From a virus, in IMG/VR virus record IMGVR_UViG_3300031857_000950, positions 1 through 30,287 of that record: a stretch of DNA of 30,287 nucleotides. One strand, given 5' to 3'. How positions within the stretch are numbered: the first letter of the stretch is position 1; each line of letters starts with the position of its first letter. The notes beneath the pieces were generated by a model. It had not been told where the DNA came from and made no database searches. It worked only from the letters and a program-made list of their open reading frames with translations. Shown here one piece after another: positions 22,444 to 28,076 of the stretch. A program made the position numbers and the translations under genes.

Positions 22444-22688
22444 CGCTCACCCCCATGAAACCATGCTGCGGGAAATCTGATCGGGTTGCGCGCCAAAGCC
22501 GCCGCCACCTCATTCGCGATAGGAAGACCGCTGGCTGGCTTTTGACGTCTGTGGATATCGACATAGCCAGAACGCGCCTCAAGCCCGCCTACGGCCATCT
22601 GTGGCCCGGCAATCGGCCTTCGCTCGACCACGACAACCTTCCGGCGTCCGCGAACGGCAATTGTCCGCCGGTCAGAACGGGATCGCAT
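22440..22688 (-). CDS. Small basic hypothetical protein
   Basis: 82 residues. ATG at 22686-22688 has a strong AAGGAGG nine bases upstream, the best ribosome site in the region. A TTG at 22694 is in frame but too close to it. The N-terminus is very basic (MRSRSDRRTIAVRGRRKVVVVERR); the rest is neutral, ending FPAAWFHGGER. Its start lies inside the end of the gene above and its stop overlaps the gene below by four bases, so it is coupled on both sides. Not recognised; a nucleic-acid-binding role is possible from charge only. Confidence 0.6.
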   Translation of the reverse strand: MRSRSDRRTIAVRGRRKVVVVERRPIAGPQMAVGGLEARSGYVDIHRRQKPASGLPIANEVAAALARNPIRFPAAWFHGGER

Positions 22689-23274
22689 CGTCAAGCGCCT
22701 CCTTGCTGTCGTGGATGGCGTGCAAGGGGTCGTCGACTTGCGTGCGAACGCCCGTCACGGCCGCGCCCCTGAAGGTTTCCTTGATCTTCGCCAGCGCCGG
22801 GAAGCCGGATATGAGCCGCCCAATCTCGTCCAGGGTGTAGACGTGAACGTGGCGGCCATCCGCCAGCACGGACCGGGCGGCGTGGTTATCCCGCACGATG
22901 GCCGCGACCGCGCCGTCAGACAGCGCGACCTCCCAGACTTCGGGCGGGCGGGTATGGGCGCCGGCCTCAGTCGCCACGCGGTCAAGCGCGCGCCAGGCCG
23001 TGATCATCCGCCGGCATTCGCGCCGCACGTCGTCTAGCTCGCCGTGCCAGATGGCGTGGTTGGTCAGATAGCGTTGTCGGTCGAACTTGACGCGAAGCTC
23101 GACGGGCACAAGCAACCGCAGCCGGTCGCAGCCCCACTTGGCCTCCATCTCGACCGCTACCGCATCGAGGTCGTCAACCTCCGCGCGGCCGGCGATGTAG
23201 AGGCCATTGGTCGAGTGCCATGGGGCGGTCTGGAATTCCGGCAGCGCCTTCGATTTTGATTTCGCCGTGTTCAT
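22672..23274 (-). CDS. Replication-region protein with SSB-like C-terminal tail
   Basis: 200 residues from ATG at 23274, with GGAG six to seven bases upstream (that GGAG belongs to a TGCTCCAGT repeat). A GTG at 23328 is an alternative, longer start. Central part: MEAKWGCDRLRLLVPVELR and AIWHGELDDVRRECRRMITAW. It ends EALDDAIPF, close to the DDDIPF tip by which bacterial SSB recruits repair and replication proteins, but the body does not look like an SSB OB fold. It follows the primase-helicase and the repeat array, so a role in phage DNA replication is likely; the exact function is unknown. Confidence 0.7.
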   Translation of the reverse strand: MNTAKSKSKALPEFQTAPWHSTNGLYIAGRAEVDDLDAVAVEMEAKWGCDRLRLLVPVELRVKFDRQRYLTNHAIWHGELDDVRRECRRMITAWRALDRVATEAGAHTRPPEVWEVALSDGAVAAIVRDNHAARSVLADGRHVHVYTLDEIGRLISGFPALAKIKETFRGAAVTGVRTQVDDPLHAIHDSKEALDDAIPF

Positions 23275-23278
23275 CGTC

Positions 23279-23433
23279 TGCTCCAGTCCCGCGCTCCAGT
23301 TGCTTTTCGGCTTGCTCCAGTGCTCCACTCCACCCCCCCCCTAAAGGGGGGGGGGTGGGTGAAGCATGGCCGCGCGGTGCAATTTGCTCCAGTCTGCTCC
23401 AGTTTGCTCCAGTTGCTTTTTGCGACTGGAGCA
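23279..23433. repeat. TGCTCCAGT iteron-like array, candidate replication origin
   Basis: Copies of TGCTCCAGT at 23279-23287, 23313-23321, 23385-23393, 23395-23403 and 23405-23413, near-copies (one mismatch) at 23292-23300 and 23321-23329, and an inverted copy at 23425-23433. Three lie exactly 10 bp apart, one helical turn. That spacing places them in all three reading frames, so selection acts on DNA rather than protein. They flank a G/C palindrome and lie between the primase-helicase gene and another replication-region gene. This layout resembles initiator-binding iterons. Confidence 0.6.
23330..23358. repeat. G/C-rich palindrome inside the iteron array
   Basis: CCA plus nine C (23330-23341), loop TAAAG, then nine G plus TGG (23347-23358): a 12-bp perfect stem. 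It lacks a T-run, so it is unlikely to be an ordinary intrinsic terminator. It may be an origin cruciform, an intercistronic mRNA stem, or a spot prone to sequencing length errors. Confidence 0.6.
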
Positions 23434-23441
23434 GCTTCAAC

Positions 23442-25616
23442 TTAGCCATCATTGAAGGGTCCAGGCCGAACGAATTTGCGCATCTTCCGGCGCTCGTCGG
23501 GCGCGTCGAATTCTTCCAAGGCCCGGCTTTCGGTCCACATTTTTTGAAGGGCCTTGGCCTTCCCTTTAGCCGCCTCGCTGGCGTTCAAGGCGTCGTCAAA
23601 GCCAAGCGCCTGCAGGATGGCGTAGCCGACCCATTGCTCGGAACGCGGGTCCGCCCGCCAGTTCCCGGCGGCCACAATCCGGCGTGTCTCCATAAGGTCG
23701 GACGCGGTGATGTCGGCGGTCGGGTCAGGCCATTGCCAGCGGGTGACGACGCCCACCTTGTCGCTGGGGCGCGCCGGCGCGTTGGCGTTCGCCGGCGTAT
23801 CGTTCCCCAGATCCACGGAGGCGAGGTGGAACCATGCAGCGTTAGATGAAGGCGGCGCCAGGTTGGCCTTGCCGTTGTCGGCCCGGAAGTACAGGCCCGG
23901 TTCTGTCACCCCGGCCCGCGCCGCCTCGTCGGCGCTCATGCGGTTGATGGCCCGCGCCGCACGGGCAGCCGCCAGCAAGGCGACAGCGCCGCGCCCGTCT
24001 TCGACCGTGACCTCGTTTCCGTTCGTCTTGCGGACATGATGCACAAGCTCGACGGCGCAATTCGTGGCGTCGGCTATGTGGGCCCATGCCTTCGCGACCC
24101 GTTCAATCTCGCCGTTGTCGTTTTCCGTCACGCGATGGCAGGACACAAACGGGTCGATGATGACGACGCCGATGCCGTTGGCCTTGATGGTGGCGACGAC
24201 TTGCTCGATCACGGGCGCATTGATGATTGCTCCGTCCCGCGTCTTCTCTGCGATGATGATCGGCGTCTCGCGCCCGGTGTCTACGAACAGCCGACCGACA
24301 ATCTTTTCGGGCGCCAGGCCATAGTGAAGCACGGCGGCCATTATGCGCCGGTCCATTTCCTCGCGCGGATCCTCGCCATTCCAGAACCAGACGTTCGCCC
24401 GCTCGGTGGGCGCGACGCCGAGAAGCGGGTCGCCTGACGCGATGCAGAGCGCCTCAACAACCTTCAGGGCTGTCTTGCCGACGCCGCCCGGCGCCACCGT
24501 TGTCGACACGAACTTGCGGATATAGTGCCGGTCATAAATCCACGCGCGCGGCGGGATGCTCGACGGGTCAATGTATTCAAAAGGGGTTGCTTTGATTCCG
24601 TTGGCCGCCGTCGACGCGCGGGGCGGCGTTGCGGTCAGGAAAGGCTCGCTGGCGGCAGGCTTGGGCGCCACCGGCTCTTTCCGCCCTTCCTCTGCGATCT
24701 CATGGTCCCACTTGCGCAGCGCCCGCGTCCAGTGATCTCGGAAGGCGGTAAGCCCGCGCCCTTCCCGCTCAAGCCCATCGGCGTTCGCCACGCCCTGCAG
24801 CCGCGTCTTGGTCGTGCGCTCATAATCGGCCCAAGCCCGCGCCATTTCGGTTTCCATCCCGCGCGGGTCAAGGATCGGGCATTCTCGCCAGAGCGTGATC
24901 AGCCGCGCCCAGATCAGATTGCGCATCTTCTCTTCGCGGCCATCTATCGTGGCGCCGAAAGGATCGCGTTCATTGCCTGGGGACGCCGTGCGCTGCGCGG
25001 CTGGCGACGATTGGCCGCCGCCGTGTTCTTCAATCAGCGCCTTGATCGCCTCGACCAGACGCGGCGTTGCGGTGTCTATTTCGATTTCCCAAGGCCCGCA
25101 GCCCTCCGCCCAGCGGTACGTGTCGCCGCTCATGTGAAGGGAAGGTGGAAGCATTGCAAAGCCGCCCTGGCCGCGTATGTCGACGCCTATTGCGGTGCGG
25201 CAATTCCCTATTGTGACGCCTTCCGGCAGGCGAAAGAATATCTGACGGCCGCCGCCTCCGGTGCGCTGCTTCCACGTCTCAGGCTCAATGCCGAGCGTGA
25301 CATCTGCCCACCACGCGCCCGCCTCCGGACCGTTGTAATCATCGAGGTCGATGCAAACGATGTTGCCGGACGCGGCGCCCGTGATCATGCCCATGTTCGG
25401 CCTGGCGGACGCCGGGAACCAGCGCTCGAAGACGGCGTCGCTGGCGAGGTCGGTCTGAAACTGCCGCCAGTCCGCCAGCGCCGGCCGCTTGTCGCCGCGC
25501 GTCCGCATAGGCGAGGGCGCGGGGACAACTTGCACCCCCGCGCGCCTGTACATTTCGGCCCACTCGACGGGGGCGGCGAATGCAGGGTCGAATGTCGTTT
25601 CGCTATCAAGCATCAT
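23442..25616 (-). CDS. Primase-polymerase / RepA-like helicase fusion
   Basis: 724 residues. N-terminal PrimPol domain (about 15-200): MGMITGAASGNIVCIDLDD with metal-binding acidics at 90-93, GGGRQIFFRLP near 121-131 and GVDIRGQGGFAMLPPS near 144-159. A linker follows (about 200-340). The C-terminal RecA-like ATPase (about 350-570) has Walker A APGGVGKTA (375-383), Walker B GVVIIDPF with Asp near 488 and a conserved VELVHHVRK. Such fusions synthesise primers and unwind DNA at phage and plasmid origins. The gene stops just before the iteron array. ATGATG start at 25616 follows a G-rich stretch and has a weak Shine-Dalgarno. Confidence 0.88.
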   Translation of the reverse strand: MMLDSETTFDPAFAAPVEWAEMYRRAGVQVVPAPSPMRTRGDKRPALADWRQFQTDLASDAVFERWFPASARPNMGMITGAASGNIVCIDLDDYNGPEAGAWWADVTLGIEPETWKQRTGGGGRQIFFRLPEGVTIGNCRTAIGVDIRGQGGFAMLPPSLHMSGDTYRWAEGCGPWEIEIDTATPRLVEAIKALIEEHGGGQSSPAAQRTASPGNERDPFGATIDGREEKMRNLIWARLITLWRECPILDPRGMETEMARAWADYERTTKTRLQGVANADGLEREGRGLTAFRDHWTRALRKWDHEIAEEGRKEPVAPKPAASEPFLTATPPRASTAANGIKATPFEYIDPSSIPPRAWIYDRHYIRKFVSTTVAPGGVGKTALKVVEALCIASGDPLLGVAPTERANVWFWNGEDPREEMDRRIMAAVLHYGLAPEKIVGRLFVDTGRETPIIIAEKTRDGAIINAPVIEQVVATIKANGIGVVIIDPFVSCHRVTENDNGEIERVAKAWAHIADATNCAVELVHHVRKTNGNEVTVEDGRGAVALLAAARAARAINRMSADEAARAGVTEPGLYFRADNGKANLAPPSSNAAWFHLASVDLGNDTPANANAPARPSDKVGVVTRWQWPDPTADITASDLMETRRIVAAGNWRADPRSEQWVGYAILQALGFDDALNASEAAKGKAKALQKMWTESRALEEFDAPDERRKMRKFVRPGPFNDG

Positions 25617-26371: not shown

Positions 26372-27124
26372 CTAAATTCCCCAAACTTCAAACGCCGCCG
26401 CTCGCGCGGTTGCATCGTTGAAATAGAAAGAGTCCGTGTCTGGCGCCGTGATGCCGACAAGCTCTTGCGGGTCGTCGGACACGGCAAGAAACCGCTGAAT
26501 TGTGAGGGCGACACGCTCAAGCGCCGCGACGTGATCGCGCGCGTTTTCGAGTTGGTAAGTCGCGATCTTTTTGGTCGAGCAGTAGGACAGACGAAGATCT
26601 GTATTGTTGCCACGGCACGCCGCATAAAGCGCCACCTGGCGCGCGTGGCCTGTCTTGATCTTCGACGGGACGGCGTGCGTCGTCTTGAGGTCGAGCAGGA
26701 TGCCGTGGTCTTCCCACTCGGCGTCAAAGTAACCGATAATAGGAACCGCCAGCCCTTCGACGTTGTGCGAGACAAGACCCTGCGTTGCTGACGGCTTGCC
26801 GTATGGCCGCAATTCAGCAAGGCCGGTCTTCACCATGCCTGCAAGGCTGGCTTCTTCCTTCTCGCGGCTTGGGTCGGTCGAGAACGCCGCGCGCTTCGCG
26901 AACGTCTTGCGCGCGACCTCTACACACTCGTCATCATCCGCGCCGTTCAACAGCCCGTGCATGATGCCGTCTTCGACCGCCGTGCCGCGATGCGCAGCGC
27001 AGCCGACCGGCGTCTTGTGCTTCAGGACTTTCTCAAGAACAAACAGCGCAGGACACGCAAGAAAGACGTTGATGCTGGACGGCGAGAGGTGTTCGATGCC
27101 GTAGCGCTCGAATGGGCTTGTCAT
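26372..27124 (-). CDS. PD-(D/E)XK exonuclease (RecB/Cas4-like)
   Basis: 250 residues from ATG at 27122-27124, coupled by a four-base overlap to the RuvC-like gene. Motifs run in the RecB-nuclease order: LSPSSINVFLACPALF near 13-28, HRGTAVEDG near 45-53, GYFDAEW with Asp at 134, LLDLKTT with D145-x-K147, and QVALYA with Gln163 and Tyr167. There are too few cysteines in the right places to support a Cas4 iron-sulphur cluster. The enzyme probably resects DNA ends for recombination or processing; the neighbouring ssDNA-binding candidate and RuvC-like resolvase support a recombination module. Confidence 0.85.
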   Translation of the reverse strand: MTSPFERYGIEHLSPSSINVFLACPALFVLEKVLKHKTPVGCAAHRGTAVEDGIMHGLLNGADDDECVEVARKTFAKRAAFSTDPSREKEEASLAGMVKTGLAELRPYGKPSATQGLVSHNVEGLAVPIIGYFDAEWEDHGILLDLKTTHAVPSKIKTGHARQVALYAACRGNNTDLRLSYCSTKKIATYQLENARDHVAALERVALTIQRFLAVSDDPQELVGITAPDTDSFYFNDATARAAAFEVWGI

Positions 27125-27606
27125 TCCGCCGCCTCCGCATTGCGCCGCACCACAACTTCTGCGCCATACTTCGCAAGCAACGCCGCCTCTGCGCGTCCGT
27201 GTGATTTCTTGAGCGCGAAGCCGTCGCACGAAGGCCACAAGATCAACGCCCGTGCGCGCGCCTGCTCTTTGTCGGCAGACAGGCCAAAGTGTTTCTTCCA
27301 CTTCTGAGGCGTGACGAAGTGCGACGGGATCTGTTGCGCGGCGACGATGCCTTGCAGCTTGCCAAACGACACGCCGAATTTGAATGTGGACGAAAGCCCC
27401 TGCTTTGGCATCGCGCCAACAAGCTCGATGATTGCGAGGTCGGGCTTTAGTTGAGCGATGCGCCGCGAGAGCGTCGTCGCGTCGAGGTGGCCGTCTGCAA
27501 TCGGCACGTCTTCGACCATGATGCGGTCCGGATATGCCGGGAAGTAAAAGGCGATTGCGCCGGAAGCGCCAGGATCAACGCCAAGGATGCAGAAGCCGTC
27601 CTTCAT
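27121..27606 (-). CDS. RuvC-like Holliday junction resolvase
   Basis: 161 residues from ATG at 27604-27606, overlapping the GcrA stop by four bases; a longer in-frame start (27699) would lie inside gcrA. RNase H fold motifs: ILGVDPGASGAIAF with Asp11, AIIELVGAMPKQG with Glu61, SFGKLQGIVAA, and HGRAEAALLAKYG with acidic residue at 140. These match the four acidic-motif layout of phage RuvC-type resolvases. It should cut branched DNA formed in replication and recombination before packaging. Confidence 0.88.
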   Translation of the reverse strand: MKDGFCILGVDPGASGAIAFYFPAYPDRIMVEDVPIADGHLDATTLSRRIAQLKPDLAIIELVGAMPKQGLSSTFKFGVSFGKLQGIVAAQQIPSHFVTPQKWKKHFGLSADKEQARARALILWPSCDGFALKKSHGRAEAALLAKYGAEVVVRRNAEAAE

Positions 27607-28076
27607 GCCGCTTGCTCCACTCTCTTGTAGGATACGCCCAGCGACAGGCGGACATGATTTGAACAATAGGAAGAATGCTTTTCGCGAATGGCGCCGCAAA
27701 AGTGAAACTCATCGCCGTCAATCGGCCAGCGGCAATGAAACTCGCGCGCTTCAGTCAACGCTACAGGGCGCGATTCCGGCAAGGGTCCGAAAGCTTCGTC
27801 TATCTTGAGAAGACGTTGCGCCCGCACCTCAAGCCTGCGCGCCTTCGCGTCGTCGGCGTGTTGCGCGAGAGCCTTCACAACTCGCTTTGCCCGCGCGGTT
27901 GCTTCCATATTCTTTCGGAACACGGGCGCTACCGGCTTGCTCATTCCAAGCCGATGCGCCTTGCCGATGCAGGCGTTGCGCGTCATGCCGATGGCGTTGG
28001 CGATCTCAGAAAACGAATGATCATTTAAGTGCATCCGCTTTAGAGTTTCGACTTTATCGTCGGTCCAGCCTGACAT
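27603..28076 (-). CDS. gcrA: GcrA-like cell-cycle regulator
   Basis: 157 residues. The N-terminal helix-turn-helix (about 1-45: SGWTDDKVETLKRM, FSEIANAIGMTRNACIGKAH, RLG) matches the GcrA DNA-binding domain. The C-terminal domain has CRWPIDGDEFHFCG and SSYCSNH, with Cys115, Cys127, Cys138 and His141, the expected sigma70-binding end. In Caulobacter GcrA is a sigma70 coactivator acting at GANTC sites methylated by CcrM. A phage copy could steer host or phage promoters in step with the cell cycle. AAGGGG lies six to seven bases before the ATG. It is embedded in the early operon, coupled to the resolvase gene. Confidence 0.9.
   Translation of the reverse strand: MSGWTDDKVETLKRMHLNDHSFSEIANAIGMTRNACIGKAHRLGMSKPVAPVFRKNMEATARAKRVVKALAQHADDAKARRLEVRAQRLLKIDEAFGPLPESRPVALTEAREFHCRWPIDGDEFHFCGAIREKHSSYCSNHVRLSLGVSYKRVEQAA

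Follow-up and report, generated by a model that had tools for sequence, protein, structure and literature searches.

We found an iteron array in a viral genome that is very likely a phage replication origin, to which the phage's own helicase would bind through its C-terminal domain; about a hundred relatives were compared. Binding and origin activity are inferred here, and no replication or binding data are available. The array lies within the window, which is the whole stretch of DNA that was analysed (30,287 nucleotides; IMG/VR virus record IMGVR_UViG_3300031857_000950), directly 3' of the stop codon of a primase-helicase gene.

The array and its neighbouring genes

The 9-mer TGCTCCAGT is present in exact copies at 23279, 23313, 23385, 23395 and 23405 and in one inverted exact copy at 23425. 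Together with two near-copies at 23292 and 23321, each with one mismatch, this gives eight copies, three of which (23385, 23395 and 23405) are spaced at exactly 10 bp. Six exact copies of one 9-mer within 155 bp compare with a maximum of three in 100 dinucleotide shuffles and of two in the remaining window, where only three further matches with one mismatch were detected. The iteron array is real and non-random. Between its two iteron blocks lies a hairpin with two 12-nt arms (23330-23341 and 23347-23358) that are 100% complementary and enclose a 5-nt loop; folded as single-stranded DNA, the array reaches -44.4 kcal/mol (z = -5.75). The features of the array are as follows.

23279..23287, minus strand: iteron copy ACTGGAGCA, overlapping the downstream gene's ribosome-binding-like GGAG
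23292..23300, minus strand: iteron near-copy ACTGGAGCG
23313..23321, minus strand: iteron copy ACTGGAGCA
23321..23329, minus strand: near-copy AGTGGAGCA of the iteron, at the base of the hairpin
23330..23358, no strand: 12-bp G/C hairpin with the apex CCCCTAAAGGGG
23385..23413, minus strand: three ACTGGAGCA iteron copies at exact 10-bp spacing
23425..23433, plus strand: inverted iteron copy, nearest to the helicase stop codon

Only 8 bp separate the array from the end of the helicase gene, which encodes Prim-Pol and AAA_25 domains; on the other side the array is bounded by the start codon (ATG) of a small gene that encodes an SSB-like tail and whose Shine-Dalgarno-like GGAG falls within the last iteron. 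The neighbouring genes and the parts of the helicase discussed below are listed here.

23442..25616, minus strand: gene of the 724-aa Prim-Pol/RepA-like (AAA_25) helicase with a C-terminal domain, the proposed initiator (Pfam, covariation)
25098..25550, minus strand: Prim-Pol domain, residues 23-173 (Pfam)
24021..24587, minus strand: AAA_25 core of the helicase (residues 344-532), a homologue of RSF1010 RepA
23463..23705, minus strand: C-terminal domain, residues 638-718, a predicted winged helix and proposed to bind the iterons (structure model and covariation)
23643..23645, minus strand: Arg658 codon; the residue covaries with N0 of the iteron (R where N0 is C, Q where it is G)
23484..23492, minus strand: Arg709-Arg710-Lys711 codons at the wing tip, covarying with N1, N3 and N2 (covariation)
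22672..23274, minus strand: downstream 200-aa gene whose product ends in an acidic, SSB-like tail (DDAIPF) and matches no family; the proposed recognition can do without it

The helicase core matches RepA (PDB 1G8Y, E 1.2e-19), and the top Foldseek hits are RSF1010 RepA. An earlier note, made from the sequence alone, had described eight copies or near-copies of a 9-mer in 155 bases, three of them at 10 bp and one inverted, around a 12-bp G/C palindrome, next to a primase-helicase gene and a gene with an SSB-like tail. All of this held upon recount, the palindrome in the form of 12-nt arms with a 5-nt loop and the neighbours as the Prim-Pol plus AAA_25 gene and the gene ending in ...DDAIPF. GC skew showed no switch within the window and was uninformative on an origin.

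An SSB-like tail (DxIPF) is frequent in the gene that follows the array (22672-23274, minus strand, in the window; L014:1870-2427 in a relative), and no family match was obtained. Upstream of the helicase gene, the window carries genes for a PD-(D/E)XK nuclease (26372-27301, minus strand) and a RuvC-like Holliday-junction resolvase (27121-27699, minus strand). It also encodes a GcrA-like cell-cycle regulator (27603-28076, minus strand; Pfam GcrA, E 6e-29), which indicates an alphaproteobacterial host.

Recurrence in phages and plasmid-like records

Using a DNA-only pattern of one inverted and two direct 9-mers, we searched viral contigs and obtained 25 matching phage contigs, among them the window's own (L003/L021). 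A gene of the helicase family, identified with a profile from the window's helicase, lies beside the array in 23 of the 25; in the remaining two (L036 and L257) the contig ends inside the array. IMG/VR also holds a contig nearly identical to the window (2 mismatches in 14,317 bp). The reverse search yielded 80 IMG/VR loci found solely by helicase sequence, with 77 usable 3' flanks. The array was present in 57 of these 77 flanks, as opposed to 4 of 307 control segments from the same contigs, and at the threshold used it was absent from about a quarter of the flanks. The N-termini of the relatives' helicases vary, some having a Prim-Pol domain and others none; common to them are the RepA-like core and the C-terminal domain of about 110 residues.

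In a repeat search without a preset frame, 54 of the 55 top 8-mers matched the frame [CG]TGNNG, for which 18% was expected. Across relatives the iteron frame can be written as N0-T-G-N1-N2-G-N3-A. Related arrays contain 6.8 iterons on average, mostly spaced at 8-11 bp, and 45 of 87 carry the hairpin apex type CCCTAAAGGG (6 of 379 control segments). The gene that follows the array varies between phages, and array and hairpin are kept. Moreover, iterons and a hairpin occur at the equivalent site in plasmid-like records of Microvirga terrae, Methylobacterium indicum, Microvirga lotononidis and Rhodoplanes serenus, where the iteron sequence is a different one, e.g. GGTGACGCA or GGTGGGGCA. Conservation of the 9-mer in relatives had been suggested as a check on the array. 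This proved too narrow, with the exact 9-mer being kept in some relatives only; others keep the frame and the hairpin, and their variable bases change with specific helicase residues.

The arrangement is not uniform. In a set of six related contigs (L255, L256, L261, L263, L264 and L298) the array lies about 470 bp past the helicase stop codon rather than directly after it. Palindromic arrays of TGCTCCAGTAAA/TTTACTGGAGCA are found with very divergent helicases of about 22% identity that still have RR at the wing (L258:14051-14315 and L259:3976-4240), and a Microvirga lotononidis plasmid (L267) combines repABC genes with the helicase, iteron and hairpin module. Rhizobium phage RHph_X2_26 encodes a related helicase whose C-terminus does not show the usual wing motif, and the region that follows the gene has no evident array. 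This single case is consistent with a link between wing and iterons. Searches with the exact 9-mer at gaps of 0-3 bp returned mostly coding repeats, ACTGGAGCA being read as Thr-Gly-Ala, and were set aside. Blastn with the short array against phage and plasmid records gave nothing useful.

Covariation of helicase residues and iteron bases

We scanned 87 dereplicated loci for mutual information between the variable iteron bases and 381 columns spanning the helicase core and the C-terminal domain. For every variable base, the top column of the 381 falls in the C-terminal domain. The best column for N0 is 658, with an excess of 0.79 bit compared with an all-column mean of 0.05 (sd 0.08). N1 and N2 are best explained by column 711, with 709 second for N2, and N3 by column 710. 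Arginine at 658 goes with C at 37 of 38 loci and glutamine with G at 45 of 46, which together accounts for 82 of the 87. Similarly, arginine at 710 occurs with C (70/71), and glycine, serine or alanine at this position with A or G. The base preceding N0 is A in 99% of the C class and G in 74% of the G class. K, M or R at p2 is ambiguous unless neighbouring residues are considered.

Kinship was controlled for with a tree of the helicase core lacking the C-terminal domain, on which independent pairs were taken on supported branches. The phylogenetically independent pairs ran 8:0, 9:0, about 10:0, 9:0 and 7:0 in the expected direction, and the rest do not differ.

We derived the wing rules from the first set of loci, froze them and applied them to 31 held-out loci less than 90% identical. 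The rules were correct at 29 of 31 for N3, 24 for N2, 18 for N1 and 14 for all three bases, where permutation gave means of 21.0, 11.0, 9.8 and 2.4, and the nearest relative by helicase core gave 22, 17, 17 and 8, respectively. The N1 rule thus adds little beyond kinship (18 versus 17). One held-out locus, L478, has the same wing triplet as the window (RRK), and its iterons carry the predicted GAGC. Covariation and held-out prediction are hereby shown for the main family.

In a divergent third, marine clade (batch 3), the frozen wing rules failed, with 0 of 14 correct for N2. The N0 rule had been derived on pooled data, and batch 3 is its sole out-of-sample test; here it was correct at 12 of 14 loci (permutation mean 9.0, P 0.03). 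The wing in this batch is of the GRE type (xGRE), and the automatic alignment register is apparently one residue off. When the alignment is re-registered by eye on the G-R motif, N1 in the divergent clade seems to follow the residue that precedes G, with Q pairing with A, D or E with C, and K with G; this pattern is post hoc, and we do not count it as evidence. The iterons of the divergent GRE-type loci L535-L605 read STGNGGA.

A model of the C-terminal domain from 62 sequences (pLDDT 88.9) predicts the order helix-helix-helix-strand-wing-strand, and the turn between the strands holds residues 707-711, including 709-711. Fold searches returned winged-helix proteins (BLM RQC, PadR), all weak with a best E of 0.03, and no family was found for the domain in Pfam or PDB sequence searches. 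On this prediction, the domain is probably a winged helix. That it sets the specificity for the iterons is strongly supported by the covariation and the held-out prediction; the binding as such is inferred.

The proposed origin, its rivals and related systems

In the mechanism we propose, the adjacent RepA-like primase-helicase would bind the iterons through its C-terminal domain, which is probably a winged helix; residue 658, located in the loop that precedes helix 2, would read the first variable base (N0) and the wing tip (709-711) the inner ones. Several helicase subunits would assemble on the iterons that flank the hairpin on both sides, the duplex would open at the array and the helicase ring would load. 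The fused Prim-Pol domain may then prime on the strand exposed in this way. The hairpin could guide this step and may resemble the ssi sites of RSF1010 or the stem-loop of pRN1 (PMC4234260). All of these steps are inferred, from physical binding and opening of the duplex to loading of the helicase and priming at the hairpin, and so is the activity as an origin. The earlier note had favoured a DNA-level role, as an initiator-binding origin or an operator, and had found no obvious initiator. The origin reading is supported and in line with all the evidence, replication itself being inferred, and as the initiator the covariation now suggests the adjacent helicase, acting through its C-terminal domain.

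The rival that survives best, though we regard it as unlikely, is an operator, to which the helicase C-terminal domain or a separate repressor would bind in order to regulate the downstream genes and not replication. The array is intergenic, the GGAG of the downstream gene lies within the last iteron, and covariation points to the binder but not to the consequence of binding. However, the array is located downstream of the helicase gene and not in its promoter, array and hairpin persist while the next gene changes from phage to phage, the proposed binder is a replicative helicase, and an average of seven iterons plus a hairpin exceeds the usual operator.

A separate, RepC-like initiator that binds the iterons while the helicase merely co-evolves is very unlikely. 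It has a precedent in RSF1010, where RepC binds the iterons and RepA unwinds (PMC4234260), but single helicase residues at the predicted wing tip vary in step with the variable bases, the family found beside the arrays in the DNA-only set is the helicase, and none of the ten window ORFs scanned has a RepC-like Pfam match (other ORFs were outside the scan). We rank marginally lower a cos/pac packaging site, to which the small terminase would bind and which would separate the genes for replication from those for packaging: the large terminase gene lies about 2.3 kb from the array in the window and terminase genes lie within a few kb in several relatives, yet the variable bases follow single helicase C-terminal residues among 381 helicase columns, and in nearly every contig the array is immediately next to the helicase gene while the genes between array and terminase vary.

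An origin bound by its own helicase has parallels in known systems. SaPI Rep and SCCmec Cch2 are initiator helicases whose C-terminal domain binds iterons just 3' of their own gene (PMC7581432), and iterons directly downstream of the helicase gene are likewise found here and in 57 of 77 relatives. Both proteins belong to a different (AAA+) helicase class. Here, in contrast, the helicase has the RepA/RecA fold, its C-terminal domain has no Pfam family and a hairpin lies between the iteron blocks. ORF904 of pRN1 is a single protein with a Prim-Pol domain, a helicase and a winged helix at the C-terminus, and an origin stem-loop follows directly downstream of its gene (PMC4234260). A stem-loop downstream of the replication gene is met here as well, as the 12-bp hairpin with an apex conserved in relatives. 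However, the pRN1 protein is an SF3 helicase without iterons and with unidentified recognition motifs, whereas the window's system has an AAA_25/RepA fold, iterons and proposed recognition residues. The IncQ plasmid RSF1010 (RepA, RepB', RepC) shares a homologous hexameric RepA helicase, iterons with hairpins and a dedicated primase. There these are separate proteins and RepC binds the iterons, whereas the helicase described here carries the proposed binding domain in the same chain and, in the window, the primase too; the RSF1010 iterons of about 20 bp are not matched by the 9-bp copies at 10-bp spacing. The alpha protein of phage P4 is known as a single chain of primase, helicase and, at the C-terminus, an origin-binding domain, and has an iteron origin (also described in PMC4234260); it differs by its Toprim primase, its helicase class and its iterons. 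For PLE RepA_N, it has been shown that the DNA-binding domain of the initiator covaries with the origin iterons across variants (PMC8263062). That covariation is at the level of domains, between two types of an unrelated protein, whereas here single residues track single bases in many lineages.

The open-access literature that we searched, subscription papers not being covered, holds no description of this helicase and domain combination or of the residue-to-base code. The general logic is known from SaPI Rep, Cch2, P4 alpha, pRN1 and RSF1010, but the helicase class, the domain and the code are likely to be new. A bolder reading, which we lean towards by a narrow margin, is that this phage and plasmid helicase family carries an undescribed winged-helix domain and a natural residue-to-base code (658 reading N0, 709-711 reading N1-N3). 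This would let phages diversify their origins stepwise and form origin compatibility groups. Rivals that target origins, for which Odn in ICP1 is an example, may have exerted pressure in this direction.

Overall, a likely initiator and the bases that it likely reads can now be named for phages and phage-plasmids whose origins are apparently undescribed in the open papers searched. For the main family, the protein allows a partial prediction of the origin sequence, and vice versa. The family thereby offers a rare natural data set on how a winged helix could read DNA via its wing and an N-terminal loop, and it raises the question whether phages diversify their origins in order to avoid cross-talk or origin-targeting parasites.
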